Source: Alicyclobacillus acidiphilus NBRC 100859 (GTDB lineage Bacteria; Bacillota; Bacilli; Alicyclobacillales; Alicyclobacillaceae). Taken from it: a DNA stretch of 64,000 nucleotides. The notes beneath the pieces were generated by a model, which worked only from the letters and a program-made list of their open reading frames with translations, searched no databases and was not told where the DNA came from. The translations under genes were made by a program, and so were the position numbers. The DNA lies in contig NZ_BCQI01000006.1 in the NCBI RefSeq assembly GCF_001544355.1, positions 1 through 64,000 on the forward strand, given 5' to 3'. Shown one piece after another: positions 14,478 to 53,500 of the stretch (within the stretch, counting starts at the first letter, position 1; the number at the start of each line of letters is the position of its first letter).

Positions 14478-14655
14478 GAGACTGGTGCAATGTTGGGACG
14501 ACTTTCGCGTTGAATGCCGACGGGCCAGCAGATGCTGGTCCGGTCGGCCGTTTCATCTGGTGATCGACGAATAAAGGTATGTGCGTCATCGTATAGTTGG
14601 AACTCCAGAGGTCGTCGAAGACGACGCGACTCGGTTGATTGAGGGAGGCACACAC

Positions 14656-16224: not shown

Positions 16225-16983
16225 TTATGACGGGATGGGTGTCTTGTTGAGCCACGAGTCTTTCCGCAAATCGGCTTCCAACAGCGTGGCGGCAAGCTCG
16301 TGGCCAGCCTCGTTGGGATGCCAGCCGTCGGCGGCATACGTTTCCCAGGTCAAGTCGTGATCGGCCAGATAGGCTTTCATTTGCGAGAACAAATCCACAA
16401 TGTGAACATTCGGATTGTGCAACGCCTCGACCGCTTTCTCCTCGGAGCGCAGCGCGATAGGCTGCTCGGTCTTGAACTCGACATACGATGCGCCGACGAC
16501 CGGCGGGGTCACAATGGCCACTTGGGCGCCAGCATGCAGGGCGTCCTTCGTCTCGTCGACAATCTGCGCATCCAATTGCGAGATCGGGTGCTTGTCGTAC
16601 AAATCGTTCAGCAAGCCAAAGGAAATCACCACGAGGTTTGGCTTGTCTTTGGTGAGCAGGGTGTTCATTCGCAGCAGGTAGTACGATGGGCCTTTTCCCT
16701 CGGACGCCTCGTTTGTAAATTGGTAAGTCGTCTTCGCATTGGAGAGCGCCCGAAATGTGCGAGTCAGGTAGCCCCCGTCCTGCTTGTTGTCGTCCCAGCC
16801 CAGCGCGATCGATCCGCCAATCGCCATGACCCGAACCTTGGACAGCGTTTGAGGTACGCTTTGCGACAAGGACATGGCTGGGGATATGGTGTCGCCGTGC
16901 GAATGGGTATATGAAAGAGGGTAACTCAGCGCGATTCCCGCGGCGATCACGGCGGAGAGTATTCCCCATACAGTTCTCTTCAT
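16225..16983 (-). CDS. SGNH/GDSL hydrolase, exported
   Basis: A 252-residue esterase-type hydrolase with an N-terminal hydrophobic segment (about residues 4-22) serving as a signal peptide or anchor. Block I is GGSIALGW with the nucleophile Ser, block III is the ISFGLLNDLYD region, and block V is ADGWHPNEAGH carrying the Asp and His of the triad. Relatives include YvpB/TesA-like lipases and cell-wall acetyl esterases; the substrate is unknown. ATG 16983 follows GGGAGATGACATC, better than the in-frame upstream codon. It is convergent with the dehydrogenase and upstream of nothing on its strand. Confidence 0.85.
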   Translation of the reverse strand: MKRTVWGILSAVIAAGIALSYPLSYTHSHGDTISPAMSLSQSVPQTLSKVRVMAIGGSIALGWDDNKQDGGYLTRTFRALSNAKTTYQFTNEASEGKGPSYYLLRMNTLLTKDKPNLVVISFGLLNDLYDKHPISQLDAQIVDETKDALHAGAQVAIVTPPVVGASYVEFKTEQPIALRSEEKAVEALHNPNVHIVDLFSQMKAYLADHDLTWETYAADGWHPNEAGHELAATLLEADLRKDSWLNKTPIPS

Positions 16984-17015
16984 GATGTCATCTCCCACAG
17001 CCTATCCTATCGCAT

Positions 17016-18413
17016 TTAGCGAGATATCGCACTCACCCTCCCTTTGCCGCCGTGTTTGGAGGCGTACATCGCCTTATCCGCGACCTGAATCAATTCGCTG
17101 ACTGTTGTGCCGTCGCGCGGCGCGCTCGACACGCCGACCGAGACGGTCAAGTGTCTGTGGCGATAAGGGATTTCCATGCCTGGGTGGGCGCGAAAAGCGT
17201 CCAGAATGTCTTCGCCGACGGACAGGCCGACGCTGACGTCCGAGTTCGGAATGAGAATGACGAATTCGTCGCCGCCAATCCGTCCCGCTATGGCGCCGTC
17301 TGGTATGGATTGGCGAATGATGGATGCCGTTTGGACAAGGATCGCGTCTCCGGCAGGGTGGCCAAACGAGTCGTTGATTTCCTTAAACGAGTCGATGTCC
17401 AACATCAGCAGTGTGCATGGCTGTTCCGATGCTGAGGTGGACTTCAGCAAATTCGTCGCCGATTCGTAGAACGAGTCCACGCGAAACAGGCCAGTGAGAT
17501 CGTCTTTCGTAGCCCGCTCGTTGAGCGACTCCATCAGCTTGCTTTTGCCAAGGGCGAGCCCGACCTGTGTCGCCAGTTCGATCACGGCCTGCAGCGCGCC
17601 TTGAGGAACGGCGTCGAGCGAATAGATGTTGTCGAGCAGCAGCGCGGCAATTCGCTTGCCACCCATGACAATCGGCACCCAAACGGCTTCAATCCCTGGG
17701 ATCTGCTGTGGTTCATTCGCGAAGGTGGGCAGGGAAGGGGAGTGGGTCAATTCAATCGGTTCCGATCCGACTGCGGCGTAGATGGTTCGAGAGATGGTGA
17801 CTTCGTCGGAGTCGAACAGGAACAACGTCGCTCGGTCGAACCCAAGCAATCCGACTCCGGCTCGCGCCAAGTTCATGAGAATTTCTTCGGTGTTGTCGCT
17901 GACGGAGATGACGCGCGACAAATCTGTCAGGGACTGCAGGAAGACGAGCCGTTCCTTCAGTGGGCGAAAGGTGGCGTAGTGGCGAATGCCAAGGGCAATG
18001 GTCTGTTGAAACGCCACTAGGCTCTCGCTTGGGAGCAGAATCAAATCCCGCCTCGAAATGATGACGATGAAGCCGATCAGTGACTCGCCAGAGATGGGGA
18101 TCCAAATTTCAAACCGATCTCCCCTCCGCACCCGAACGACCTCGTCACGAAGCGGGAGTACAGACTGCACCTGATACTCCGAGAGATAGTTCGACTCGAG
18201 ATACAACTGGCCCTCCTGAATGTCGACGACCGAGCGATACATCGTGTCTTCGTCTCGGATAAAGACGTTGATTTGAACGATATGTTCAGAGAACGGGATC
18301 CCTTTCCACATCAATAGAAACGCTCTTCTCAACGTGTCATCGGAGACATCGCCGCCATAGAGCATGGAAGAAATTTGGTAGCCAAGGTTCGCCATGTGTT
18401 GCGCATAGTCCAT
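17016..18413 (-). CDS. GAF-GGDEF diguanylate cyclase, cytoplasmic
   Basis: A 465-residue protein with no transmembrane segment. Residues 1-150 and 150-300 look like two GAF-type sensory domains. Residues 305-465 form the GGDEF domain, starting DDLTGLFR. It has the metal-binding Asp in MLDIDSFKEIND and an intact active-site GGDEF near 380, so it should make c-di-GMP. No RxxD inhibitory site stands in the usual place before GGDEF. The ATG overlaps the stop of the upstream solute-binding-protein-like gene (TGATG), with GGGAGG seven bases before it inside that gene, so the two are translated in step. This pairing suggests that the neighbour supplies the input signal. Confidence 0.9.
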   Translation of the reverse strand: MDYAQHMANLGYQISSMLYGGDVSDDTLRRAFLLMWKGIPFSEHIVQINVFIRDEDTMYRSVVDIQEGQLYLESNYLSEYQVQSVLPLRDEVVRVRRGDRFEIWIPISGESLIGFIVIISRRDLILLPSESLVAFQQTIALGIRHYATFRPLKERLVFLQSLTDLSRVISVSDNTEEILMNLARAGVGLLGFDRATLFLFDSDEVTISRTIYAAVGSEPIELTHSPSLPTFANEPQQIPGIEAVWVPIVMGGKRIAALLLDNIYSLDAVPQGALQAVIELATQVGLALGKSKLMESLNERATKDDLTGLFRVDSFYESATNLLKSTSASEQPCTLLMLDIDSFKEINDSFGHPAGDAILVQTASIIRQSIPDGAIAGRIGGDEFVILIPNSDVSVGLSVGEDILDAFRAHPGMEIPYRHRHLTVSVGVSSAPRDGTTVSELIQVADKAMYASKHGGKGRVSAISR

Positions 18414-19660
18414 CAATTCACCTCCCAGTTAAACCGCAGAAGCTGGTTGAGTTCCTCGTCCGCATGAATGCACATCGATTGGGCGTGATCGTCAAAATCG
18501 TGATCGATTAAGTGCCACATCATATCGCTCATGGTCACAGACATGTTGCGCTCAATGGAGCCCCACATGGGATGCATCGGATAGATTCGCGCATGGTTCA
18601 GATTGTGCAACAGAACTTGGATGTCTGGATGATTGGCGTATTGTTCCCAAAACCGGCACTCCACAGCTGGCAAGGAGCAAATCCAGCGTGCCCAGCGGTC
18701 CGCGAGTTCTGCAGATTGAAGGGCCTGAACGATTTCCCACGCCAAATCCGGATGTTTTGTCACCGATGAAACGCCAAGCAGCGATCCGCCGCCATACGAA
18801 ACGGAGCCTGCCGGGCCAGAAGGAGGTGGAATCACGCACGTGGGGAATTGGGGATCCACATTCCACGCCGGTTCCACCACCTTGCGTATCGTTTCGAACA
18901 GTCCGCTCACATGGAACACGGTACTGCCCTGCTGAAAATACGCCATATTGGATTCGTAGCTGCTGCTGCGAGCGTCCTCCACGGTCGTTTCACTGATTTC
19001 CATCAAATTGCGGATATATTCCATTCCGCGTTTGAATGCCGTGGAGTTCATCACCGACACGGGCCTTTCGTCCAACGAAGGGAAATCAAATCCACCCGAC
19101 CAGAGCCATGGAGAGATGCGATGAAGCGTTGGTCGTTCGGGTCGGCAAGGGAACGTGATGGCTCGCGGCGCGCGATCCATGTACGCCCAGGATGCGGCCC
19201 GTTTTTGCATGATCATGCTGCACACCGATTCGAATTCCTCCCACGTGAACGATACCTGGTGCGGAATGTCGAGTGTGTCGAGAATATCCGTACGAGCCAG
19301 GATGCAGGAAGTATCAGCGGTCCATGGCACGGCATACGGGCGGTTTTGAAATTGGCGCGACAGGTCAAGGTAATCGGCGATGGCATGTTCCATGACCAAC
19401 CCCTCTGGCACTGGGGAGAGCATATGTAAACGAACCAGCGTGCTGAACCACGTGGTTCCAAACTCGAAAACGTCAGGAGGGGTCCCGTTCTTGTACGACC
19501 GGATCAGTTCTGTCCAAGCGTTGGCGAACGTGAGCAGTCTCCACTCGATCTGCAGCGACGGTCTGCTGGCTAGAAAGCGGTCAAGTTGGTGTTGCAGGAA
19601 GTCGACTGTCTGTGAACCTCTATACGAGTTCACAATCCAAACTTCTATCGTGTTCGGCAA
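18413..19660 (-). CDS. Cytoplasmic solute-binding-protein-like sensor
   Basis: A 415-residue protein of the family 1 extracellular solute-binding fold (sugar type). It opens with IEVWIVNSYRGSQTVDFLQ and continues with PPDVFEFGTTWF, then RPYAVPWTADTSCILARTDIL, then SVTKHPDLAWEIVQAL. These are the standard segments of MalE/UgpB-like proteins. It lacks the usual signal peptide and lipobox entirely: the fold begins at residue 5. The TTG start has GGAGG seven bases upstream, and no upstream in-frame extension could add a leader. It overlaps the GGDEF gene by its stop codon. I infer a cytosolic ligand receptor rather than an importer component. Confidence 0.85.
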   Translation of the reverse strand: MPNTIEVWIVNSYRGSQTVDFLQHQLDRFLASRPSLQIEWRLLTFANAWTELIRSYKNGTPPDVFEFGTTWFSTLVRLHMLSPVPEGLVMEHAIADYLDLSRQFQNRPYAVPWTADTSCILARTDILDTLDIPHQVSFTWEEFESVCSMIMQKRAASWAYMDRAPRAITFPCRPERPTLHRISPWLWSGGFDFPSLDERPVSVMNSTAFKRGMEYIRNLMEISETTVEDARSSSYESNMAYFQQGSTVFHVSGLFETIRKVVEPAWNVDPQFPTCVIPPPSGPAGSVSYGGGSLLGVSSVTKHPDLAWEIVQALQSAELADRWARWICSLPAVECRFWEQYANHPDIQVLLHNLNHARIYPMHPMWGSIERNMSVTMSDMMWHLIDHDFDDHAQSMCIHADEELNQLLRFNWEVN

Positions 19661-19875: not shown

Positions 19876-20988
19876 ATGGCACGCCCAAAGGTAGGCATCA
19901 TAGGTTGTGGCAATATTAGCGAGATTTACTTTAAGAACTGTCAGGCGTTCGGCATGGACGTCGTCGCGTGTGCAGATATCGACTTGGAGAGAGCGAAGAG
20001 CCGCGCCGCTCAGTTCAATGTTCCCGTTGGCTGCAGCGTCGACGAACTATTGGCGAATCCCGATGTCGAGGTCGTCATCAATCTGACGATCCCGAGCGCG
20101 CACGCCGAAGTTTCCCGCCGAGCACTTGCGGCTGGCAAGCACGTACACTCCGAAAAACCGCTCGCCTTGACCGTTGAAGAAGGCCGAGAACTCATTTCGT
20201 TTGCTCAACAACAGAACCGCCGCGTCGGCTCTGCGCCAGACACGTTCCTCGGGAGTCACCTGCAGACATCGCGCAAGGTGATAGACGATGGGTGGATCGG
20301 CAAGCCAATCGGCGCTACGGCGTTCATGATGAGCCATGGCCCGGAACGCTGGCATCCCAATCCGGACTTTTTCTATCAACCGGGCGGCGGCCCGATGTTT
20401 GACATGGGTCCGTACTACCTGACGGCGTTGGTGCACCTGCTGGGACCCGTTCAGCGGCTCACAGGCATGACGCAAGTGAGCTTTCCAGAACGGGTTGTCA
20501 CCTCGGAACCGCGATTTGGCCAGTCGATTCAAGTGAACACGCCCACGCACGTCACAGGCATTCTGCAATTCGCATCCGGGGCCATCGGCAACATTCTCAC
20601 GTCGTTCGACGTATGGCACTCGGAACTGCCCCGGATCGAAATTTACGGCACAGAGGGAACGTTGAGTGTGCCTGACCCGAACAATTTTGGCGGCACGGTG
20701 CGCGTCCGTCGCCATGACGCCAAAGAGTGGACCGAAGTTGCGCCACTGTTCGGCTTCCAGGAAAATAGCCGTGGACTCGCGGTAGCCGATCTGATGGACG
20801 CTGTCCGGACGAACCGATTGCATCGCGCAAATGGCGATCTCATGCTTCACGTGGTCGAATTGATGGAAGGGATCCACGTTTCGGCGAACGCTGGCCGTCA
20901 TTATGAGATGACGACGACCTGCGAACGTCCGTCACCATGGCCCCTCGGTTTCGACGAAACGCAACTGCGGCTTTCATTTTTCCGCTAG
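19876..20988 (+). CDS. Gfo/Idh/MocA family oxidoreductase
   Basis: A 370-residue NAD(P)-dependent dehydrogenase of sugars or sugar derivatives. The Rossmann motif is VGIIGCGNIS at the N-terminus. The EKP motif (HSEKPLALTVEEG) and the C-terminal domain with GGGPMFDMGPYYLTALVHLLG are intact; the latter carries the usual catalytic His. RBS GAAGGATGGTG precedes the ATG. It has its own terminator, so it is a separate unit just upstream of the ABC importer. Family members oxidise myo-inositol, glucose or keto-sugars; here it may process the imported glycan. Confidence 0.92.
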   Translation: MARPKVGIIGCGNISEIYFKNCQAFGMDVVACADIDLERAKSRAAQFNVPVGCSVDELLANPDVEVVINLTIPSAHAEVSRRALAAGKHVHSEKPLALTVEEGRELISFAQQQNRRVGSAPDTFLGSHLQTSRKVIDDGWIGKPIGATAFMMSHGPERWHPNPDFFYQPGGGPMFDMGPYYLTALVHLLGPVQRLTGMTQVSFPERVVTSEPRFGQSIQVNTPTHVTGILQFASGAIGNILTSFDVWHSELPRIEIYGTEGTLSVPDPNNFGGTVRVRRHDAKEWTEVAPLFGFQENSRGLAVADLMDAVRTNRLHRANGDLMLHVVELMEGIHVSANAGRHYEMTTTCERPSPWPLGFDETQLRLSFFR

Positions 20989-21363: not shown

Positions 21364-21392
21364 TTGATATCGAAAGCGATTACATGTTTATT
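21364..21392 (+). promoter_or_regulatory. Predicted sigma-A promoter of the ABC importer operon
   Basis: TTGATA (21364-21369), a 17-base spacer and TTTATT (21387-21392). The spacer is filled by a catabolite-repression-like site. The start of transcription would be near 21399, and the large palindrome would lie within the leader. It is preferred over the TTGACA pair 65 bases upstream because its distance to the palindrome matches that of the second operon. Confidence 0.45.
21371..21384 (+). promoter_or_regulatory. Candidate cre (CcpA) site
   Basis: CGAAAGCGATTACA matches the Bacillus cre consensus TGWNANCGNTNWCA at 13 of 14 positions, failing only at the first base. It lies between the predicted -35 and -10 boxes, where CcpA binding would block polymerase. 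This would give glucose repression of the importer. Confidence 0.5.
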
Positions 21393-21422
21393 CGTCTTAA
21401 TTGTCAATGTCGTACATTTAAC

Positions 21423-21448
21423 CTCTTTTGGGAACGTTCCCAAAAGAG
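21423..21448. promoter_or_regulatory. 26-bp perfect palindrome, LacI-type operator
   Basis: All 13 base pairs around the centre (21435/21436) are complementary. The core TTTGGGAACGTTCCCAAA recurs exactly at 29596-29613. LacI-family operators are palindromes with a central CG like this one. A LacI gene lies at 28292-29296. The centre is 43 to 44 bases after the predicted -10 box. Confidence 0.75.
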
Positions 21449-21470
21449 CCGAGTGGAAGGGAGAATCGCC

Positions 21471-22349
21471 ATGGCCTCTCCGATGGAGAAAAAATCAAGA
21501 TATGGCCTAGTCTTTGTCGCACCGTACTTTATCGTGTTCGCTATCTTTGGTCTATATCCAATCCTGTACTCCTTGTACATCAGCTTCACGAATTCGAATG
21601 GTTTCACATCGAATTTTATTGGGCTCCAAAACTATACCCGTCTCCTGCATGACAAGTTCTTTTATCAATCTCTTTGGAGCACTGTGGTTATTTGGATTAT
21701 TTCCATCGTTCCGCAATTGATTATCGCCCTGGTCTTGGCCCTGATACTCAACGAAAAATTCATCAAAGGGCGCCATTTCTTTCGGGCGGTTTTTTATTTG
21801 CCAAACATCGTGACGCCGGTCACGATTGGCGTCTTGGCTGATTTGATGTTTGACTGGCAAACCGGGTTTGTAAACAAGCTGCTGATGGCGCTGCACATTA
21901 TCAAGCAGCCGGTGTATTGGTTTGGTCATCCGTTCTTGGCACAGTTGATCGTCGGCGGCGTCATCTGTTGGCAATATTTCGGGTACAACATGCTGATATT
22001 TATCGCCGGGTTGCAATCCATCGACAGCGAATTGTACGAAGCAGCTGAGATTGACGGGGCAGGCAAGTTTCAGACCGCGATACGCATCTCTCTTCCTTTG
22101 CTGAAGCCAGTCATGATGTTTACCATCATCACCTCCATTATCGGCGGAATTCAGATCTTCGATATTCCGATGATGGTTGGGAACGCCGTAGGAAACGCTA
22201 CGCAGACCTTGATTGTGTACCTGTACAAGGCGGGGTTTGTCAATTTCGACTACGGTTACGCGGCGGCGATCGCGTACGCCACGTTCGTGATCATCATTAT
22301 TCTGACACTGATTTCTCTCAAAGTGTCCAATCGGAAATCCGCTTCGTAG
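21471..22349 (+). CDS. ABC sugar transporter permease (MalF type)
   Basis: A 292-residue inner-membrane permease with six predicted helices. It carries the EAA loop as EAAEIDGAGKFQTAIRISLPLLKP near residue 190, which contacts the ATPase. It belongs to the carbohydrate-uptake CUT1 family. The frame is open from 21384, but that would place the operator inside the coding region; ATG 21471 has AAGGGAG eight bases upstream and gives the usual cytoplasmic start MASPMEKKSRYG. It is the first gene of the importer operon; no ATPase gene is present. Confidence 0.93.
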   Translation: MASPMEKKSRYGLVFVAPYFIVFAIFGLYPILYSLYISFTNSNGFTSNFIGLQNYTRLLHDKFFYQSLWSTVVIWIISIVPQLIIALVLALILNEKFIKGRHFFRAVFYLPNIVTPVTIGVLADLMFDWQTGFVNKLLMALHIIKQPVYWFGHPFLAQLIVGGVICWQYFGYNMLIFIAGLQSIDSELYEAAEIDGAGKFQTAIRISLPLLKPVMMFTIITSIIGGIQIFDIPMMVGNAVGNATQTLIVYLYKAGFVNFDYGYAAAIAYATFVIIIILTLISLKVSNRKSAS

Positions 22350-22391: not shown

Positions 22392-23276
22392 GTGAGCCGT
22401 GTATTCGTGGACGGAGATTCTGTTAAGAAGCCTGCAAATTCAAGGAAATCCAGTCCTTCCCTAAGTGTCGGCCGGATTTTGGTCTATGCCTTTCTCATCG
22501 TGGTCGCGCTGATCAGCTTGCTTCCTTTCTACAGCATGATCATGTCGTCTACACACGCAAACTATGCCATTGCAACGCAATTGAATCTCTTACCAGGAAA
22601 TCAGTTCATCGCCAATTACAAGCGTCTGATGGGTACTGTGAATATTTGGAGAGGTTTCGCGAACGATCTGCTGGTAGCAGTTTCCGCGACCGTGTTGACC
22701 TTGTACGCGTCGGCACTGACCGCCTACGGTTTTTCGAAGTTTCGGTTTCGCGGCAGCAAATTCCTGTTTGGGTTTGTCCTTGCTTCGATGATGGTCCCTG
22801 GTCAGCTTGGTATCATCGGATTCTTCCGGGAGATGCACACCTTGCATTTGCTCAATACGTATTGGCCGTTGATCATCCCGGGGATCGCCAGCGCGTTCAA
22901 TACGTTCTTTATCAAACAAAACTGCGACTCCGCGGTTCCCGATGAATTGATTGAAGCTGCGCGGATGGATGGCGCGAGTGAATGGTATATCTTCCACCGG
23001 ATCGCGCTGCCGCTGTTGAGACCGCCGATGTCCGCGCTGGGGATTTTTAGTTTCATTGGCAACTGGAACAGCTACATGATGCCTTTGATCATCCTGTTTG
23101 ACAATAATCTGCAAACGTTGCCCGTGATGGTGGCGATGACACAAAGCGCGTCGTCCACTGACTATGGGGCACAGTATGTCGGTGTTGTCATCTCCGTCGT
23201 TCCAATCATCATCGTGTTTTCGATTCTTTCACGGCGGATTATCGGTGGATTGTCCGTCGGTGCTCTGAAAGGATAA
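22392..23276 (+). CDS. ABC sugar transporter permease (MalG type)
   Basis: A 294-residue permease with six helices and an EAA loop (EAARMDGASEWYIFHRIALPLLRPP), the partner of the upstream permease in a CUT1 importer. The N-terminus is a Ser/Lys-rich cytoplasmic tail. The GTG start follows GAGGAGG at ten bases. It is 42 bases after the first permease and 114 before the binding protein. The C-terminus IIGGLSVGALKG is the standard MalG end. Confidence 0.93.
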   Translation: MSRVFVDGDSVKKPANSRKSSPSLSVGRILVYAFLIVVALISLLPFYSMIMSSTHANYAIATQLNLLPGNQFIANYKRLMGTVNIWRGFANDLLVAVSATVLTLYASALTAYGFSKFRFRGSKFLFGFVLASMMVPGQLGIIGFFREMHTLHLLNTYWPLIIPGIASAFNTFFIKQNCDSAVPDELIEAARMDGASEWYIFHRIALPLLRPPMSALGIFSFIGNWNSYMMPLIILFDNNLQTLPVMVAMTQSASSTDYGAQYVGVVISVVPIIIVFSILSRRIIGGLSVGALKG

Positions 23277-23390: not shown

Positions 23391-24704
23391 GTGAACAGAA
23401 AAACGAAATTATCGATGTCGATCCTCAGCGTAATCGGAATCGGCGGATTGTTGGCAGGGTGCGCTGCTCCCGCGAATACGAACAATGGCGGAGCGGCAAG
23501 CACGAATCCGAAGGTCGCAGCGACCAACTCGAAGCAGATTAATTTGGTGGAATGGACGTACTACGCGAACGAAAAGTTGGCGGTCCAACAATTTGAAAAG
23601 ATTCATCCAAACATTCATATCACACTCAAGGTATTCCCGGGCAGCGATTATGAAACCAAGTTGCAGGCCGCGCTGTCCACTGGAACCGACGTGCCAGACA
23701 TTTTCGATCTCGATATGGGATACATTGGCAAGTTCATCAATACACCCTACGTCGCGGATCTAAGCAAATTGGGGGCCAATTCGCTTGTCAAAGGGATGAT
23801 CCCGTACGTGGCAGCCGGCGGCGAAAAGAGCAACGGTGATGTCGGTGCCATTACCGACACGTCGTCGCCTGGAGGATTTTGGTTTAATATGGCGGCTGCG
23901 AAAAAGTGGCTGGGTACCAATGATCCGAACAAGGTTGCAACCATGGTAAACAGCTGGAGCAAAATCGAGAGTCTCGGCAAGAAGATCAACCAAGAGAGCA
24001 AGGGCAAAGTTCACTTGCTCGACGATCCTGGCTCGGTGTTCGCGGTCGAGGAATACCATACCCAGAACTTGGTTCAGAACGGCAAGTTGGTCATCGATCC
24101 CAAATGGAACACCATTCTGAATACCATGCGTACGCTCGCTCAACCTGGACTCACTGCAAATCTTCCCGCGATGGGTACGGGATGGGGCAACTCGTTGAAC
24201 GATCACTCGGCGGATCCGGATGCCATTCTCTTCGCGATTCCGTCCTGGGCAGGCTTCATGGTCAACAGTACGACCGCGAACGGCAAATATGGTGTCGTTC
24301 CTGCGCCGGATGGGTACTACGAAGGTGGTCGGTACGCCGCTATCTACGCTGGATCGAAGAATCAGCAAGCGGCTTACGAATACCTCCAGTTCCTGGCCAG
24401 CCCGCAATGGCAAAAGTGGAACTTGGACAACACGGCCAACATGCCGTCGCTGAAGTCGGTGTATACGAAGTACGAAAATACGTACACATATCCGTGGTTC
24501 GGCAACCAGAAAATCCTGAAGATGTACTACAAGATCTCCATGGATATTCCGCCTCAGAAGCAGGATGAATACGAACAACCGCTTGTTTCCGACTTCTTGG
24601 GGGATGCCAGCACGATGGTGACGCAGAAAAAGTCCAACCAATGGGCGATCCAACAGTTGAAGGCACAGGTGCAATCTTCATATCCGGAAGTCAAAGTCGA
24701 TTAA
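23391..24704 (+). CDS. ABC transporter sugar-binding lipoprotein
   Basis: A 437-residue family 1 solute-binding protein. A signal peptide ends in the lipobox LAGC, with the lipidated Cys at residue 24, followed by an Asn/Gly/Ala linker. The mature part has the expected VEWTYYANEKLAVQQFEKIHPNI and SKNQQAAYEYLQFLASPQWQ segments. It captures the oligosaccharide outside the membrane for the two permeases. The GTG start follows GAGGAGG. Being last in the operon, directly before a strong terminator, is unusual, since binding-protein genes normally come first. The ligand is probably a mannose-containing oligosaccharide, judging by the neighbours. Confidence 0.93.
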   Translation: MNRKTKLSMSILSVIGIGGLLAGCAAPANTNNGGAASTNPKVAATNSKQINLVEWTYYANEKLAVQQFEKIHPNIHITLKVFPGSDYETKLQAALSTGTDVPDIFDLDMGYIGKFINTPYVADLSKLGANSLVKGMIPYVAAGGEKSNGDVGAITDTSSPGGFWFNMAAAKKWLGTNDPNKVATMVNSWSKIESLGKKINQESKGKVHLLDDPGSVFAVEEYHTQNLVQNGKLVIDPKWNTILNTMRTLAQPGLTANLPAMGTGWGNSLNDHSADPDAILFAIPSWAGFMVNSTTANGKYGVVPAPDGYYEGGRYAAIYAGSKNQQAAYEYLQFLASPQWQKWNLDNTANMPSLKSVYTKYENTYTYPWFGNQKILKMYYKISMDIPPQKQDEYEQPLVSDFLGDASTMVTQKKSNQWAIQQLKAQVQSSYPEVKVD

Positions 24705-29296: not shown

Positions 29297-29530
29297 AGTT
29301 CCACCCTCGCAACTTCTCGTTGTCTATCTGTCGATCATTTTCAGCGATTTGGTCCTAGCGTTTTACGGAGAAATCGATGGATTCGAATGGAGCGCGAACA
29401 GACTGCTCCCAGCGATGTTGAAAACGTGCCCAACATCTCAGTCTGTACGCGACATTCGTGATCGCGTGACATCTATAGTCCTATTATGCACCATAGGATA
29501 CGGATTGCGCTAGTAACAACTCTTTGTCTA

Positions 29531-29560
29531 TTGACATTCAGTGAAATGGGCGAGTATCAT
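29531..29560 (+). promoter_or_regulatory. Sigma-A promoter of the eleven-gene glycan operon
   Basis: TTGACA (29531-29536, perfect) and TATCAT (29555-29560, five of six) are separated by 18 bases. The predicted start is near 29567. The operator palindrome is centred 44 to 45 bases after the -10 box, so it would act as a block to elongation or through looping. Confidence 0.65.
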
Positions 29561-29595
29561 TCAGGCAACTGGCTAAAGCTTATTTTTTATTTTGT

Positions 29596-29613
29596 TTTGG
29601 GAACGTTCCCAAA
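29596..29613. promoter_or_regulatory. 18-bp palindrome TTTGGGAACGTTCCCAAA, LacI-type operator
   Basis: A perfect palindrome identical to the inner 18 bases of the 21423-21448 site. It lies in the leader of the glycan operon, 26 bases before the first ATG. Confidence 0.78.
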
Positions 29614-29638
29614 CGTGAAGGTTAGGTGTGAGGCGACT

Positions 29639-31681
29639 ATGGCAGACATCACCTGGCGCGTGTATCCCTCCGACGCAGCGAAAGAGTTGCATATCGTCTA
29701 TGGTGACACGTTCGACACCGACTATCTCAAATTATCTGCGTTAGGGCAGGTCATGATCGCTGGACACAGCAGTGCCTATGACATCCCAATATTGCAAACC
29801 TATTCAGATAAAGACGATAGACTTCACCTGGTAGGTCAGTCCGGCGATTTCTCGATCGTTATGGACTGGCAGCGTCAGACAGGTCGTTGCGCGTACGTCG
29901 ATGTCCATGTGGAACTCGTGTATCGCGGCGATGGTCCGGTGGACCTGGGTCTGCGCTTCCCATTCGAATTGGTGGGCCGCGGACGACCACGGTTCATGAT
30001 TCCTGGGGCATTTTACAAGGAAAATCGTTTTGCGCATAATGCGCGCAAATATCCAAGGTATGACTGGGATGGGGGGAACGCCGACGATCTCGTCTCAGAC
30101 AGTTGGTCGTTTCGGGCCGACAGGGCGGCATTGCCGGCGGTGTTCGCTTGGAACGAAGGCATGTCCGCAGCCATATGCGTCGAGGAAATCTCTGAAGCTG
30201 GTATGAACGGCGTAGGCTTTCAGGGCACTTCGGACGGGACCTTGATTTGGGCGGATTTTCCCTATCGTGAGGAACCTGTGGTATTTGACGGGGAACCTCT
30301 TGCTCAACCTGTGGATATTCAGACAGTTGCCATATCGCCTGGGCAGAAACTTGTGGTGAACTTTCGGATTTACGCCGGATCGGCAGACCTGCACGCTTAC
30401 GATCCGTTTGTCCGAACCATGTACGATATTCATCGTCAATCGCACCACCTCAATCCTTGGATGGATATCCAACAAGCTGCAGAGCTGACCGCCCATGGAT
30501 TGTTTACGTGGCACTTTCACCCGGAATACGACATTCTCATGGAGACTGCCGCGTTTGATCGGGAACTGAATAACAACGTCAAAGGCTTAGGGGATCGGCT
30601 GCACATGCACGTCGCCTGGGTCAGCGGTGCCCCATACGCCTATGCATTGTTGACCTACGGACGTCGCCATCATCGGCCTGAATATGTAGACGCTGCCATT
30701 CGAGTCCTTGACAAGATTGCGTCGGGCATTGCTCCGTGTGGGATATTCTGGGCCGCATGGACGGCCGAACGCGGCTGGGGCTGCGGTTGGAACCCGAATT
30801 CAGAGTGGCTGCAGGCGAGAACCATCTCGGAAGCGACGCTGTTTATGACGAGAGCCATCGAGTTTGAGCGGCAATTCGGCATGGAACACGAGACGTGGGA
30901 GAACGCGGCGCTTTCCAACTTGCGCTTTGCGCAACGCGTTCAGCGCGCGGACGGGAATTTCGGATCGTATTACCACTGCGAACGCGGAACGGTCGAAGAA
31001 TGGGATGGCGCAGGCGGAATGCTTTGGATTGCCGCGTTGTTGGAAGGCGCTGAAGTATTTAACCGCCGTGATTTTGCTGTCTCTGCGGAACGCGCTGGAG
31101 CGTACTACGAGCGCTTCGTCCTTGATGAATTCATATACGGCGCACCCGAGGACGTTCATCTCACGCCGACGTCAGAAGATGCGTACAACGCCGTGGTGGC
31201 GTACGTGATGCTGTATGAGCACGACTCATCGTTACGATGGCTTACTTTGGCGACCAAGTCGGCGGACTGGATGATGACATTCCGCTGGACGTACAATTTG
31301 GCGTTCCCGGCCCACACGTTGCTCAAACAGTACGATTTTCGATCCCGCGGTGCGGACCAAGCGTCTCCCTCCAATCAGCACCTGCATAACTACGGCCTGT
31401 TTTGTTTACCTGAAATGCTGCGACTCTGGCAGTATACCGACGACGATTATTATCTCATGCGCACCCGGGACTTATTGTCTTGTTTTCTTCAGTTCATCGC
31501 GCGTGAGGACGGCGACTTCAACGCGTACAAGGGCATGGTCACCGAGCGTTATTACAATACGAACTGTTTTCAGCCGAAAGGCATGCTGGTCACGCTGTCG
31601 CATGCATGGTGTGTCGGAGTGACGTTGTACGCCTGTCAGGAGGCAGCACCGTTTGGACCCCACCTCGCGCTGCGGGATTGA
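29639..31681 (+). CDS. Unrecognised 680-residue protein, predicted sugar-degrading
   Basis: I do not recognise a named family. The first 270 residues are beta-rich, like the N-terminal sandwich of many glycosidases. From about 280 to the end the sequence is mostly helical. It has repeated helix pairs and conserved-looking aromatic and acidic stretches (WAAWTAERGWGCGWNP, YYHCERGTVEEWDGAGGM, LTPTSEDAYNAVVAY), which suggests an alpha/alpha toroid like those of GH family hydrolases or lyases. There is no signal peptide. ATG 29639 has GTGAGG upstream; the frame is open from 29486, but that part contains the promoter and operator. As first gene of the operon it probably acts on the imported glycan. 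Confidence 0.7.
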   Translation: MADITWRVYPSDAAKELHIVYGDTFDTDYLKLSALGQVMIAGHSSAYDIPILQTYSDKDDRLHLVGQSGDFSIVMDWQRQTGRCAYVDVHVELVYRGDGPVDLGLRFPFELVGRGRPRFMIPGAFYKENRFAHNARKYPRYDWDGGNADDLVSDSWSFRADRAALPAVFAWNEGMSAAICVEEISEAGMNGVGFQGTSDGTLIWADFPYREEPVVFDGEPLAQPVDIQTVAISPGQKLVVNFRIYAGSADLHAYDPFVRTMYDIHRQSHHLNPWMDIQQAAELTAHGLFTWHFHPEYDILMETAAFDRELNNNVKGLGDRLHMHVAWVSGAPYAYALLTYGRRHHRPEYVDAAIRVLDKIASGIAPCGIFWAAWTAERGWGCGWNPNSEWLQARTISEATLFMTRAIEFERQFGMEHETWENAALSNLRFAQRVQRADGNFGSYYHCERGTVEEWDGAGGMLWIAALLEGAEVFNRRDFAVSAERAGAYYERFVLDEFIYGAPEDVHLTPTSEDAYNAVVAYVMLYEHDSSLRWLTLATKSADWMMTFRWTYNLAFPAHTLLKQYDFRSRGADQASPSNQHLHNYGLFCLPEMLRLWQYTDDDYYLMRTRDLLSCFLQFIAREDGDFNAYKGMVTERYYNTNCFQPKGMLVTLSHAWCVGVTLYACQEAAPFGPHLALRD

Positions 31682-31722: not shown

Positions 31723-32439
31723 ATGGTACGACTAGCCGAGGGATTCTACATGATCTCGAGCGGGAACTTGACTCATCCTTGGGATGCAAACGCGTATCTG
31801 TTTCCTGGACAGGAGCCCGCACTCGTGGATTGCGGAAGCCCATTAGGCTATGCCGCGTTGAAGGAAAGTCTGAGGCAGTTTGGCTACGAACCAAAGGATA
31901 TCCGGAAAGTCATCGGTACTCACGGACACTGGGATCATGTGTCGGGGATGGCAAGTTTGCGTCAGGAGAGCGACGCGGTGCTTTGGCTGCATCCGGCGGA
32001 CAAGGAACAGGTCGAGCATGGAGATTACGACAAGACGGCCGCATTTCTCTACGGAGAACCGTTTCCCGCAACGCCTGTCGATCATCTCTTGGAAGACGGT
32101 CAGGACATCTTGGCGGGGGATCACACGCTCAAGGTGATTCACACGCCCGGCCACTCCATCGGATCGATCTGCCTCTGGTTTGAGGTTGGAGGCATAAAGA
32201 TTCTCATCTCAGCGGATACGGTGGGCGGCGGCTTCCATCCGCGGGTTGGTTCCGATTTGGTGCAGTGGGAGCACTCGTTGGACAAATTGATGAAGCTGGA
32301 TTTTGACGTGTATACCATGGGACACAGCAATCCGACGTTAATCTACGATGCCAAGCGAAAAATCCAGGAGGCTCGCGAACAGTTCAACGTCTACTTGAAT
32401 CCCTGGTTTCGCCCGTTTCACGTCAGTTTCACCTACTAG
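31723..32439 (+). CDS. MBL-fold metallo-hydrolase (copy 2)
   Basis: A 238-residue paralogue of the protein at 24882, equal in length and about 60% identical by eye, with the same metal motif THGHWDHVSGM. The other metal ligands are in HTPGHSIGS and ISADTVGGG, and it has a near-identical C-terminal tail ending FTY. ATG 31723 has GGAGG eight bases upstream; the frame is open further upstream over the previous gene's end. Having one copy in each of two linked transcripts suggests either a shared essential step or separate substrates. A sugar lactone or ester substrate is only a guess. Confidence 0.88.
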   Translation: MVRLAEGFYMISSGNLTHPWDANAYLFPGQEPALVDCGSPLGYAALKESLRQFGYEPKDIRKVIGTHGHWDHVSGMASLRQESDAVLWLHPADKEQVEHGDYDKTAAFLYGEPFPATPVDHLLEDGQDILAGDHTLKVIHTPGHSIGSICLWFEVGGIKILISADTVGGGFHPRVGSDLVQWEHSLDKLMKLDFDVYTMGHSNPTLIYDAKRKIQEAREQFNVYLNPWFRPFHVSFTY

Positions 32440-32465
32440 TGGTTGGCAGAGAGGGAGAGTGCCAG

Positions 32466-34199
32466 ATGGTTTCCATCATACAAGGAAAGTCGAGACAGAT
32501 TCAGGCAGACGCCTACAAATTGATCTTCCCGGAGGATGATCGGCCATTTTTGTATGTAGAAAGTGCTGACGGGGAGCGGTTGGCCGATCTGTTTGCCTAC
32601 ACCAGTGTCCACACCACGGCTGGGCCGGATGATACCACGGAAGTGGGCGAGTGGCAGATTGTCGAGCACGCGGATGAAGTGGTTTGCCAAATGGTCCTGA
32701 AGAGCTCCGTATGGGACGAGAAGACGATCCGCTTTCGCTGTCAGCCAGACAGTCTGGTTTACGAGGTGGAGGTTACTGGCAAGGGACATTTGCTGGATGT
32801 CAACTACTTCGGCGGATATTCATCGGAAAGCTTGCGCTGGGGTTCGGGATTTTTCTGGTCGGGTATGAAAGCGCTGCAAGGCTTCAATCCGGAACCGAAT
32901 TGCGATGAGATTTTCTACTTCGATCCGGATTCGACGTCCGTGATCCATATGACAGGTGTTCCGATTCCGGGCAGAGGAGACTGGTTTTTCACGCCGCCTC
33001 CGTTTTGCTTTTCCTTTGAATCCAAAATCGGCTGGTTCAGCCTGGGGATCGAAGCCGCGCCTGGGGAGAATCGCTTCACCGAGTATCGCTATCAAGGGCA
33101 GCAATTCGGATTCTACCTGGCGATCTCCTACGAAGGTTACACGCAAGTCGACGGGCGCTACCAGTTGCCTGCGATTCGTTTTCAATTTGCGGACAACGAG
33201 TATCAAGCGCTGGAAGGCCATGTGACTGCACTTCACAAGAACCATTTGGCCCCCAATCCCATCGACAAGCTTGTACCATCGTGGTGGCGGCGGCCCATTT
33301 TTTGCGGCTGGGGTGCGCAGTGCTATGTCGCCGAGCGGGAGAAGGGCCACTCGGCAGATTACGGCCACGCTCCGAGTTATTCGAGGCAAGCATTGTACCA
33401 GGAATGGATGGAGACGCTCGATGCGCGCCAAATCCGTCCGGGGATTGTGGTGCTGGACGATAAATGGCAAGTCCATTACGGACTCAACGATGTCGACGTC
33501 GAGAAGTGGCCGGATTTACCCGGATTCGCAAAATTTCTGCACGATCGCGGTCAAAAGATGCTGTTGTGGCTCAAGGCGTGGGACCCAGAAGGTGTTGCAG
33601 ACGAAGAGTGCGTGTTAAACGCTGCGGGTCACAAGGTCTCCATCGATCCGACGAATCCAGCGTACCAGGCCCGTTTGCGTGAGTCGGTGCGCCGCATGCT
33701 ATCCGAAGACGGTTATAACGCGGACGGCTTCAAAATCGATTTCAGCGCCCGGATTCCGAGTGGCCCAGGTTTTCGGAAGTACGGAGACGTCTGGGGTCTC
33801 GAATTGATGAAGTTGTATCTGTCGGTGATTTACGACGAGGCAAAACGAGTGAAGCCAGACGCATTGGTCATGGCGCACACGCCGCATCCGTATCTGGCCG
33901 ATGTTCTGGATATGATTCGCCTCAACGACGTCAATGTGGCGACGGACATCAACAAGGCCATGATCCACCGCGCCCGCGTCGCCGCCATCGCGTGTCCAAG
34001 CGCCGTGATCGACACGGACAACTGGCCGATGCCAAACAAAGAAGCGTGGCGCCAATATGTGGTGATTCAACCCGAACTCGGCGTTCCTTCGCTGTACTTC
34101 GCCAGCCATGTGGACGCGACCCAGGAACCGTTGGATGAACAGGACTACCAGTTGATTCGCGACGCGTGGCGGCGATACCAATCCAGTTCGTCGAACTGA
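32466..34199 (+). CDS. TIM-barrel glycoside hydrolase (GH31/GH36-like, clan GH-D type)
   Basis: A 577-residue protein with an N-terminal beta domain (1-270) and a TIM barrel from about 280. The barrel strands read GIVVLDDKWQVHYG, MLLWLKAWDPEG, YNADGFKIDF (candidate nucleophile Asp near 424) and VIDTDNWPMPNKEAW (candidate acid/base Asp). These resemble alpha-galactosidase/alpha-glucosidase clan enzymes. There is no signal peptide. ATG 32466 has GGGAG eight bases before it. It is 26 bases downstream of MBL copy 2. It probably removes a terminal alpha-linked sugar (Gal, Glc or Man); exact family and specificity remain open. Confidence 0.75.
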   Translation: MVSIIQGKSRQIQADAYKLIFPEDDRPFLYVESADGERLADLFAYTSVHTTAGPDDTTEVGEWQIVEHADEVVCQMVLKSSVWDEKTIRFRCQPDSLVYEVEVTGKGHLLDVNYFGGYSSESLRWGSGFFWSGMKALQGFNPEPNCDEIFYFDPDSTSVIHMTGVPIPGRGDWFFTPPPFCFSFESKIGWFSLGIEAAPGENRFTEYRYQGQQFGFYLAISYEGYTQVDGRYQLPAIRFQFADNEYQALEGHVTALHKNHLAPNPIDKLVPSWWRRPIFCGWGAQCYVAEREKGHSADYGHAPSYSRQALYQEWMETLDARQIRPGIVVLDDKWQVHYGLNDVDVEKWPDLPGFAKFLHDRGQKMLLWLKAWDPEGVADEECVLNAAGHKVSIDPTNPAYQARLRESVRRMLSEDGYNADGFKIDFSARIPSGPGFRKYGDVWGLELMKLYLSVIYDEAKRVKPDALVMAHTPHPYLADVLDMIRLNDVNVATDINKAMIHRARVAAIACPSAVIDTDNWPMPNKEAWRQYVVIQPELGVPSLYFASHVDATQEPLDEQDYQLIRDAWRRYQSSSSN

Positions 34200-50195: not shown

Positions 50196-50522
50196 CCTAT
50201 CTTCCTCCTTGTGTGCGAACGTTTGGCCCTGCGGCCAGCAGCTTCATGAAAGCGGATACTTTCGTCTCGGCGACAAAGCTTCGCCTCGTATCTCTACCTA
50301 ATCATATCATCGTTGCTGGTTTCCAGGAATCCGCGAGGGGCATTTTGTTCTTTCGGCAGAGACGACGTCGTGGATCTGATCGACCCGTTCGTTATTCGGG
50401 TCATTTCGACGCGAGAATTTATAAATATGTACCGAAAAGGGAATGTTTACATATGTTGCCCATCAACGGACAAGCTAACGGTTCCATACGATTGGACACC
50501 GCGCAGGATATCAGGAGGACTT
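50196..50522. other. 327-base intergenic region upstream of the glucan synthase
   Basis: A divergent control region. It is AT-rich around 50415-50455 (TATAAA at 50420-50425 and TACATATG near 50449) but without a -35 hexamer I would trust. The glucan-synthase frame stays open back to 50313, yet that part is not protein-like. Confidence 0.5.
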
Positions 50523-53500
50523 ATGATTCTAAGCGATCTTCAGTTGCAGGCGCAGGCTCGTGAGTTTGCATTGACCGATGAAGTGATCCGTCCACGCCGG
50601 ACGACCTCCGCATTTTGGTCGAATTTCATGGCAGACATCCGCAGTTTGCACGATTTTGCCGAAATGCTGAGCGAACATCGGGCAACGTGCGCGCAACCTG
50701 CGGAGGATTGGCTGTTGGACCATATCGCTTTTCTCGAGACGCAGGCTCAGGTGGTCAAGCGCGAGCGCGTGACGAAACAGTTTGTTCAGATACCGCACTT
50801 GCGCGCCTCGTCGATTCCGAGAGTCTTTGCGCTGTGTGACGATTATTTGGAACATGTGAATGGCCAATATGACGCGAAAACCTTGCTGCTGTATCTTCAG
50901 TCCTACCAACAAGCGGCCATCTTGCATGTCCGCGAGTGCGCCATTCTACCGACCGTCATGCGTATCGCCATTCTCTCGCGTTTGGCCGACGCCATGCGGG
51001 AAGTGCGGCATCGGCACGAAGTTTGCCTCGAGTCGGAACGCATGCTCCAAACCATTGGGGGCAAGGGGATCACCGAGGCACAGGTTCGCCGCGAGATTTA
51101 CCGCCGGATTGGTGGTCGAGCCTTGACGTCTATCGAACTCGTCCATCTTGTGCAACATTTGCGCGAATGGGAGCCCGACATTCGGGTCGTTCGCGAGTGG
51201 CTTCATGGGCATATCGATCACAGTGAATCATCGCTTGAAGCGCTGGTGTCGCTCGAGCATCAACTGCAGTCGGAACTCCAGGTGCGATGTGGCAATCTCG
51301 TGCGGAGTCTGCATCGATTGGAACGGGAACCATGGCGGCCGATATTCACGCAAATTTGCCATGTGGAACAGTTGCTCCAAACAGACGAGCTGGACGAATA
51401 TCCCAAGCTCGATGAATCGAGCCAGGACGTCGTCCGCGACGCAATCGCCCGCGTGGCCCAGCGTCTGGGCGTGCCTGAGACATTGGTCGCTGAATCGGCG
51501 GTCGAGTTGGCGAGGCGCGAACTTCGCACCTGGTCTGGCGAAGGCGTTCCACCTCGCTCGGCGTCCGTCCCCTACTATGCGTTGGATCCTGCGGGACTGC
51601 GGACGCTCCATCGGGAGATTCGCAGGTCGACCGCGCCGGCTCCGCTGCGAGGGACATTCGCGCGTCGCCGCCCCTCCTTGGTCTATTTCGCGAGCGGCAG
51701 CCTCGTCTTGGTGGTTGGCATGATTCTCACGCTCGCGTGGGCGATCGGCGGCTTCGCGGTAAGCGCATGGGGTGTCGTTGGTGCGTTGGCGGCGTTGGCC
51801 TTCCCTGTGAGCGAGTGGGTTTGCACGGTGCTGCACGATGCCATCACCCGGTTTGTCAAACCCGTCCCATTGCTGCGTTATGATTTTTCACGAGGGTTGC
51901 CCGACGCAGCGAAGACGATGGTCGTGCTGCCTGTGATCTGGTCGACGGAGGACGAAGTCGACGAGGCGATGAATCGGCTGCTCGTTCACTACTTGGCGAA
52001 CCGTGAGCACAACATTGGCTTTGCGATCCTCGCGGATTTCGTGGATGGTGAGGAAGCCGTCACTGAGGCGGATCGGGCACTGCTTCAGCGGGCGATCGAT
52101 CGGATCAAGGCCCTGCAAGATGAATATGGCCCAGACAAATTCTATTTGTTCCACCGGGAACGGCGTTTCAATCCTGTTGATCAAGTGTACATGGGCTGGG
52201 AGCGCAAACGCGGAAAACTCGTGGAGTTCGTGGAATTGCTGCGCGGCAAAACCGATACGAGTTTCACGGTGTGCGTTGGCGATCTCGACTGGCTGCGGGA
52301 CGTCCACTACGTGTTCACAGCCGATCTCGATACCAGGCTTCCCTTCGGCGTCGTCGCGCGTCTCGCTGGCACCATGCACCTCCCATACAACCGGCCGCGG
52401 CTGAATCGGGAAGGTTCGCGCGTGATCGAAGGCTACGGCGTCTTGCAGCCAACCTTGAGCGTCACCTACGAGTCGACGGAGAAATCGCGGTTTGCCTCGC
52501 TTTGGGCGGGCGATCTCGGCATCGATCCATACGCCTTCGCCGTCTCCAATCCGTATCAGGACCTGTTTGGCCAGGCCGTGTTCGTCGGCAAGGGCATTTT
52601 CGACGTGGACGCCTTCGCCAGCACGCTCGTCGATCGCATTCCTGAAAACCACGTGCTCAGCCACGACATTCTGGAGGGTGGCTTTCTGCGCGCAGGGCTG
52701 GTGGCGGACGTCGAGGTCGTCGAAGAGCAGCCGACGACGGTCTATGCCTACCAACGCCGGGCGCATCGTTGGATTCGCGGCGATTGGCAGCTTCTGCAGT
52801 GGATCGGGCGGGCCTGTCGCGACAGGCGCGGACAGCGTCGCCCCGTCGATCTCTGCGGTGTCGTGCGCTGGCATATTGTCGATCACGTTCGGCGAAGCCT
52901 CCTGCCGCCCGCCTTGCTCGTCGTCGTTTGGCTCGGGGCTTTGCACGTGCTGCCAGGGCGCACCGCCGTCTGGTCGTGGATCGTGCTCCTGACCATGTTC
53001 GCGCCCTTCATCCAAACGTGCGCGGGCGGCGTGCTGGAACGGGACATCGACGTGCGTCGCGCGGCGACGGTGTTTGCGCAAAACCTGATCCAACTGCTGC
53101 TTTTGCCGTTTACGGCCGCGATTGCGGTGGATGCCGCCATTCGCACGCTCTACCGCATGCTGGTCAGCCGGCGAAGGCTGCTCGAGTGGGTGCCTTCCGC
53201 GCAAATGGAGCGGTTTAGCGGCAGTACGACGGTGATGTACGGTCCCCTCGGCGTCGTTGTCTTGCTTGCCATCGCGGTGTCCACATGGGCGGTCGGCGGG
53301 GCGGCTTCGATCATCGTCGGCAGTTGCGCGTTTGTCGTGTGTGTCATCGTGTTTCCCGTGATCCGATGGCTGAATCGGGCGCCTTCTCCAGAGACGGATA
53401 CGTGGGTAGAAGCGCATCAATCCGTGCTGGCCGATTGGGTCCGCGACATTTGGGCGTTCTACGAACGGTATGTGACGGCCGAGGAGTCGTGGATTCCGCC

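Follow-up and report, generated by a model that had tools for sequence, protein, structure and literature searches.

A leaderless solute-binding protein encoded with a soluble GGDEF enzyme: a probable intracellular receptor for cyclic di-GMP control in Bacillota

What does a solute-binding protein (SBP) do when it has no leader and its gene runs into that of a cyclic di-GMP (c-di-GMP) enzyme? The question is raised by a two-gene unit of Alicyclobacillus acidiphilus NBRC 100859, at positions 17,016 to 19,660 of the stretch analysed here (64,000 nucleotides of contig NZ_BCQI01000006.1, hereafter the window). SBPs are described as extracytosolic proteins that serve importers or transmembrane receptors (PMC9602780). 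In this unit, the SBP and its partner probably constitute a two-protein receptor inside the cell: the SBP would bind a cytosolic solute and set the c-di-GMP output through a receiver domain of the partner.

The product of the upstream gene (Table 1) carries a solute-binding fold, with Pfam matches over residues 47-332 to SBP_bac_8 (46.8 bits) and SBP_bac_1 (46.4 bits), above the curated cut-offs of 27 and 26, respectively. A profile of the SBP family matches the solved binding proteins 7c6f (E 1.8e-59, over 1-409) and CbpB (7x0i, E 1.2e-50); 7c6f, together with chain 7c63, is what we take to be the beta-glucoside-binding protein of Thermus thermophilus HB8. The SBP matches span nearly all of the 415 residues, and Pfam found no other domain, including no fused DNA-binding domain. 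The TTG start follows GGAGG after a spacer of 7 bases, and three other Alicyclobacillus copies likewise start with TTG after GGAGG. Upstream of the SBP start in the window, the frame is open for 15 codons only and contains no start codon; therefore, no hidden leader is possible, and a wrong start is ruled out as well. A hydropathy scan of the SBP and the cyclase found no membrane-spanning segment. The first-pass annotation, which had proposed a complete family 1 solute-binding fold without leader and a TTG start placed by the GGAGG seven bases upstream, is borne out in both respects.

The gene that follows encodes a soluble protein predicted, from the GGDEF signature and the metal and nucleotide motifs, to be a diguanylate cyclase. 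GGDEF is matched with 120.9 bits, and the motifs DDLT, DIDSFKEIND, GHPAGD, and RIGGDEF are all intact; motif inspection found no I-site (RxxD) in this protein. The cyclase ATG shares one base with the SBP stop (TGATG), and the overlap that had been noted between this stop and the start of a soluble GAF-GGDEF protein with an intact GGDEF site is thus confirmed, with the reservation that the GAF match itself, at 21.0 bits, is weak and falls below the cut-off of 22.4. At 11 of the 16 junctions in the genomes described below, GGGAG lies within the final codons of the SBP (often Trp-Glu), 4 to 11 bases before the partner start; therefore, the C-terminus of the SBP doubles as a Shine-Dalgarno-like sequence, which would suggest balanced production of the two proteins.

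Is the arrangement peculiar to the window? Genome searches within the phylum Bacillota, in which homologues were examined down to E 1e-35 or 1e-40 and, in the large draws, the best 4 candidates per genome were scored, gave a total of 17 SBP copies and 16 partner genes in 13 genomes (that of the window and 12 others) from three classes. Within the genus, the SBP is present in 4 of 15 genomes (the window genome, A. sacchari, A. hesperidum, and A. tengchongensis). Within the order, it is present in 7 of 59, with the addition of G028 from another genus of the family and of G054 and G055 from a second family, and in all of these the gene next to the SBP overlaps it and encodes GGDEF. A draw of 398 genomes from the phylum yielded G737 and G747 besides the window genome; the class of G747 holds the SBP in 4 of 59 genomes (G747, G821, G810, and G812) and that of G737 in 2 of 72 (G737 and G864). 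Only six members, all known already, came from a 398-genome draw of the window's class; another draw of 398 genomes from the phylum, made around G821, added none, and a scan of genome contigs by two short peptide patterns returned three Alicyclobacillus only. Partner starts were picked by script within -16 to +70 of an SBP stop; all 16 partner genes carry GGDEF and start -14 to +16 bases from such a stop. That leaves one SBP, which comes first in a tandem SBP-SBP-partner array. Because of this conservation across genomes, a chance origin of the window arrangement is excluded.

Four SBPs occur in G747, including a tandem of two ahead of one partner. At this tandem locus (L065, 10735-13265, minus strand), leaderless SBPs precede a single GGDEF-HD partner, possibly as a two-sensor receptor.

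The signal peptide or lipobox expected of the SBP of an ATP-binding cassette (ABC) importer is absent from all 17 family members and present in all 38 weaker homologues retrieved by the same searches. Leaders were judged from the open frame, from hydropathy, and by eye, without a signal-peptide predictor, and the start of the G028 copy is the least certain. Among the 38 outgroup homologues, a hydrophobic leader is found in 37 of the 37 scored and the remaining one (L055) reads as leadered too; a lipobox-like cysteine was seen by eye in 13 of the 37. Longer upstream frames with in-frame start codons occur in A. tengchongensis, G028, G737, one copy of G747 (G747b), G810, and G864. When the upstream codons are included, 12-residue hydropathy is 2.23 in G028, 1.71 in G821, and 1.66 in A. 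sacchari (the latter two start-less), and lower in the others; leadered outgroup rows range from 1.68 to 3.63. No same-strand GG[DE]EF was found near the 38 homologues within the fetched 1.5 kb or to the contig end. The two sets are also separated by score: the weakest member and the best outsider stand at 9e-108 and 6e-48 in one search and at 6e-146 and 5e-63 in another, although members used to build the profiles necessarily score high. In the tree of the 17 family and 37 outgroup SBPs, made by a quick method with long branches flagged and L055 left out, a single branch with a Shimodaira-Hasegawa-like approximate likelihood ratio (SH-aLRT) support of 100 splits the sets. The first-pass reading of an SBP that stays inside the cell and serves a c-di-GMP enzyme survives on two of the points that could have undone it: the pairing is conserved across related genomes, with 16 GGDEF partners for 17 SBPs, and the leader is missing throughout, subject to the G028 start.

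The receiving side of the proposed receptor is the N-terminal domain of the partner. A profile of this domain was searched at E 1e-8 in two sets of 59 genomes, with the class of G737 outside them. In the order, it found 7 sites, all beside an SBP; in the class of G747, it found 8, of which 7 are beside an SBP and one (G808) is 28 bases from a contig end. Of the 15 sites, 14 are thus beside an SBP and one is at a contig end; 10 had gone into the profile itself, and what is informative is the lack of any further site in the genomes searched. Pfam matches GAF in 1 of 11 members (E 0.0013) and finds no GAF domain there in the other 10. Comparison with solved proteins gave weak matches to parts of sensor domains (best E 0.011), which we take to be GAF domains. 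In the AlphaFold model of the window cyclase, where the mean predicted local distance difference test score (pLDDT) is 65, residues 1-150 mostly score 65-89 and follow a GAF-like order of strands and helices; a structure search with this model listed mostly GGDEF proteins. The topology, the weak sensor-domain matches, and the one Pfam match, which are weak grounds, suggest that the receiver domain may be GAF-like. The distances between SBPs follow those between the first 300 residues of their partners (r 0.94, 0 of 5000 permutations) and those between the GGDEF parts (r 0.85, 0 of 5000). Within the G747-type set, to which one genome contributes three paralogues and another two, the correlation between SBP and N-terminal distances is r 0.73 (4 of 5000).

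As for the output, RxGGDEF and DxLT are each present in 16 of 16 partners, and the DxD metal motif is found in the window partner and 7 other GGDEF-only partners. According to Pfam, an HD domain (HD_5) comes after GGDEF in all three partners of G747, while the window partner and five others given to Pfam have GGDEF without HD. The partner in G808, the frames of G821, G810, and G812, and the cut frame of G864 look G747-like by eye, and all but the cut one are of similar length. It appears that the input pair is constant while the predicted output varies between GGDEF and GGDEF-HD.

A possible course of signalling can be described as follows. The SBP, related to secreted oligosaccharide-binding proteins, would stay in the cytosol without a leader and be closed there by a saccharide. 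The closed or the open form would dock on, or release, the GAF-like N-terminal domain of the translationally coupled partner, and this contact would shift the cyclase dimer between active and inactive. The outcome would be a change in c-di-GMP synthesis, or in synthesis and breakdown where the partner has HD, and the signal would be relayed by PilZ proteins, genes for which are present in 13 of 13 pair-carrying genomes. The ligand class, the direct contact, and the sign of the effect are the parts of this scheme that we infer.

What the SBP may bind can be approached through its solved relatives. Compared with chain 7c63, the deposited entries 7c6x, 7c6z, and 7c71 have single Ala substitutions at about positions 42, 68, and 118 (W, W, and E; counted by eye). 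At the aligned positions, which presumably belong to the ligand site, the 17 family SBPs have an aromatic residue at 45 (F in 4, W in 13), tryptophan at 71 in all, and at 116 an acidic residue, which is D in 14 and E in 3. The beta-glucoside-binding protein of Thermus thermophilus has been compared with CbpB of Clostridium thermocellum, in which cellodextrins are held between two lobes via stacking tryptophans and hydrogen bonds (PMC9601137). The conserved aromatic and acidic positions would favour a saccharide, and the ligand would most likely be a cytosolic oligosaccharide or glycoside.

An SBP that has ceased to bind solute and serves the cyclase as a structural or stabilising subunit, or as a protein-protein adaptor, would produce identical pairing and co-variation. 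Identity between the window SBP and its Alicyclobacillus counterparts (L006, L007, and L008) is also 53-54%, below the 68-88% of 6 of the 8 other genes in the syntenic block, though the remaining two, those at 14581 and 12057, do not exceed the SBP (53-54% and 42-45%). However, ligand loss should free the positions that match the substitutions in the solved relative, and since these keep their character in 17 of 17 copies, some very distant, this explanation is unlikely.

The two genes could also share an operon and a regulon without contact between their products, the SBP buffering a sugar or passing it to an enzyme such as a Gfo/Idh/MocA oxidoreductase. A sugar-type oxidoreductase of this family is indeed near the pair in 6 of the 7 order loci (4 of 4 Alicyclobacillus, G054, and G055); its gene overlaps the SBP gene in G055 and ends 22 bases before it in G054. 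However, no match to the window oxidoreductase was found in the stretches around the pairs of G028, G737, and G747, where a GGDEF partner is present each time, and the same comparison detects the oxidoreductases of G054 and G055. The oxidoreductase was therefore ruled out as a fixed third part. With the partner N-terminal domain seen only beside an SBP in the searched genomes, save the contig-end site, a unit without contact seems quite improbable.

The G054 locus (L020, 5613-9020) is of interest in its own right, since a PAS-GGDEF-EAL gene and the oxidoreductase gene that it precedes run directly into the SBP-cyclase pair; c-di-GMP-making and -breaking enzymes may share an operon there.

Could the SBP act downstream of the cyclase, as a local effector to which c-di-GMP or a nucleotide binds, and not as its input? 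Some SBPs take nucleosides, such as guanosine in Lbp of C. thermocellum (PMC9601137), but the nearest solved relatives of this family are sugar or oligosaccharide binders with which the compared positions agree, so that an effector role is very unlikely. Export without a classical leader for action at the cell surface, to which the leadered weaker relatives might point, can practically be dismissed, with leaders in 0 of 17 copies, no membrane-like segment in SBP or partner, and no permease in scans of 30 open frames near the pairs of G054 (10), G055 (7), G028 (3), and A. hesperidum (10), scans that left out the loci of G737, G747, G810, G812, G821, and G864.

Against the proposed intracellular receptor stand several points. 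The occurrence of the pair is patchy, in the genus as in the order. In the 8 partners of the G747/G864 type, the metal motif reads DxN, with asparagine for the second Asp, and therefore their cyclase activity is less certain. The upstream frame of G028, with a hydropathy in the range of true leaders and two TTG codons, makes this the sole copy whose start is left unsettled by sequence alone. Shared descent accounts for part of the correlated distances, and the GAF domains could themselves sense something else. That the substituted positions of the Thermus relative probe its ligand site would follow from deposited mutants and not from a paper. For the SBP, AlphaFold reached a mean pLDDT of 45 from an alignment of four rows, too low to give a view of a pocket or interface.

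Table 1. The SBP-cyclase pair and its neighbours in the window.
Feature	Position	Strand	Basis or remark
Leaderless SBP, SBP_bac_1/SBP_bac_8, 415 aa	18413..19660	-	TTG start, GGAGG, Pfam, orthologues
Predicted soluble diguanylate cyclase: divergent N-terminal GAF-like receiver, GAF, GGDEF; 465 aa, ATG start at 18413	17016..18413	-	Pfam, motifs, model
N-terminal receiver domain of cyclase, about 165 aa	17919..18413	-	Profile search
Junction TGGGAGGTGAATTGATG: C-terminal W-E-V codons of SBP contain Shine-Dalgarno-like GGGAGG for cyclase; stop/start overlap	18411..18427	-	
GDSL/SGNH hydrolase, located 17 bases past the cyclase gene; hydrophobic segment at N-terminus	16225..16998	-	Same gene 3' of pair in 4 of 4 Alicyclobacillus; hydrophobic segment checked in window copy only
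Gfo/Idh/MocA oxidoreductase, divergent neighbour	19876..20988	+	Close to pair in 4 of 4 Alicyclobacillus loci; context, unproven as a part
ABC permease pair	21384-22349, 22392-23276		Divergent, from 1.7 kb away
Lipoprotein SBP of this permease pair (LLAGC)	23391-24704		

In the window, the pair lies in an island of glycan genes with glycoside hydrolases of families GH2, GH38, and GH20, LacI and ROK proteins, and an ABC importer; GH36 and GH113 are present at the A. hesperidum locus. The first-pass annotation had found no permease here, which is true only of the two-gene unit, given the permeases 1.7 kb off; as these have their own lipoprotein SBP, the SBP of the pair lacks the cognate permease of an ABC-importer SBP. 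The further suggestion, that the neighbouring locus imports the sugars sensed by the pair, is weak, since a scan of 10 genes at the A. hesperidum locus found no permease and the G028 pair stands among unrelated genes (those recognised by Pfam encode a pseudouridine synthase and a zinc-finger protein of dksA type). A link to imported mannan-type sugars was dropped as the principal interpretation. In the window, scans for Rfam families and for tRNAs gave no matches.

Other observations concern genes outside the pair. A flagellin-like open frame (by eye) lies just 5' of the pair in G821 (L068, 451-1282), a hint of a motility output. In the window, the protein encoded at positions 50313-58697 (plus strand) is 2794 residues long, combines glucoamylase-like and GH94 domains, and resembles cyclic beta-glucan synthases. 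Two frames of the glycan island, of 731 codons (29486-31681) and 586 codons (32439-34199), both on the plus strand, have no Pfam match at 1e-5.

How does the pair compare with known systems? In NspS-MbaA, the receptor sits in the membrane and is served by a periplasmic SBP, whereas both proteins described here are without leader and membrane segments, the SBP belongs to SBP_bac_1/8, and the presumed receiving domain is soluble and GAF-like. The systems are alike in that a separate SBP is encoded with, and governs or would govern, a c-di-GMP enzyme, here with 16 partner genes for 17 SBPs; in NspS-MbaA and related pairs of Vibrio cholerae and Sinorhizobium meliloti, a separate SBP regulates a cyclase/phosphodiesterase (PMC9602780). 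A solute-binding fold (SBP_bac_5) is also found within the cytosol in the SgrR/DsvR transcription factors, which are DNA-binding proteins (PMC13060122). These are single chains fused to a DNA-binding domain, of another SBP family, and their output is transcription, not c-di-GMP. SiaC, which to our knowledge is not an SBP, provides another parallel. The GGDEF enzyme SiaD has SiaC as its partner-protein activator (title of entry 7e6g). The Thermus beta-glucoside-binding protein and CbpB are nearest among solved proteins by sequence and keep the character of the three compared positions; however, they are ABC-importer SBPs for gluco-oligosaccharides (PMC9601137), whereas the present SBP is predicted to be cytosolic and is paired with a cyclase.

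Pfam SBP profiles also catch cytosolic proteins of other function (PMC9602780), and therefore leaderless proteins with an SBP fold are as such not new. A review of c-di-GMP sensing describes SBP domains as periplasmic and reports that, of these, only SBP_bac_3 had been studied in this role (PMC8846402). In the literature searched, which excludes most subscription papers, no title or beginning of an abstract describes a stand-alone leaderless SBP that serves a soluble c-di-GMP enzyme. The earlier impression that no system of this build had been described thus holds for the searched literature, but not for its components, as SBP-to-cyclase signalling and cytosolic SBP folds are both known. If true, the proposal would show a Gram-positive route from internal nutrient pools directly to motility or attachment, and it would offer a compact soluble system of two proteins for in vitro experiments, as well as a natural scaffold on which intracellular sugar sensors could be built. 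Overall, it seems reasonably likely that these pairs form a distinct family of intracellular flytrap receptors in at least three classes, in which sensors multiply and outputs swap, with the leaderless SBP as a detachable sensor and a dedicated receiver domain: a modular cytosolic counterpart of the membrane SBP-receptor systems.

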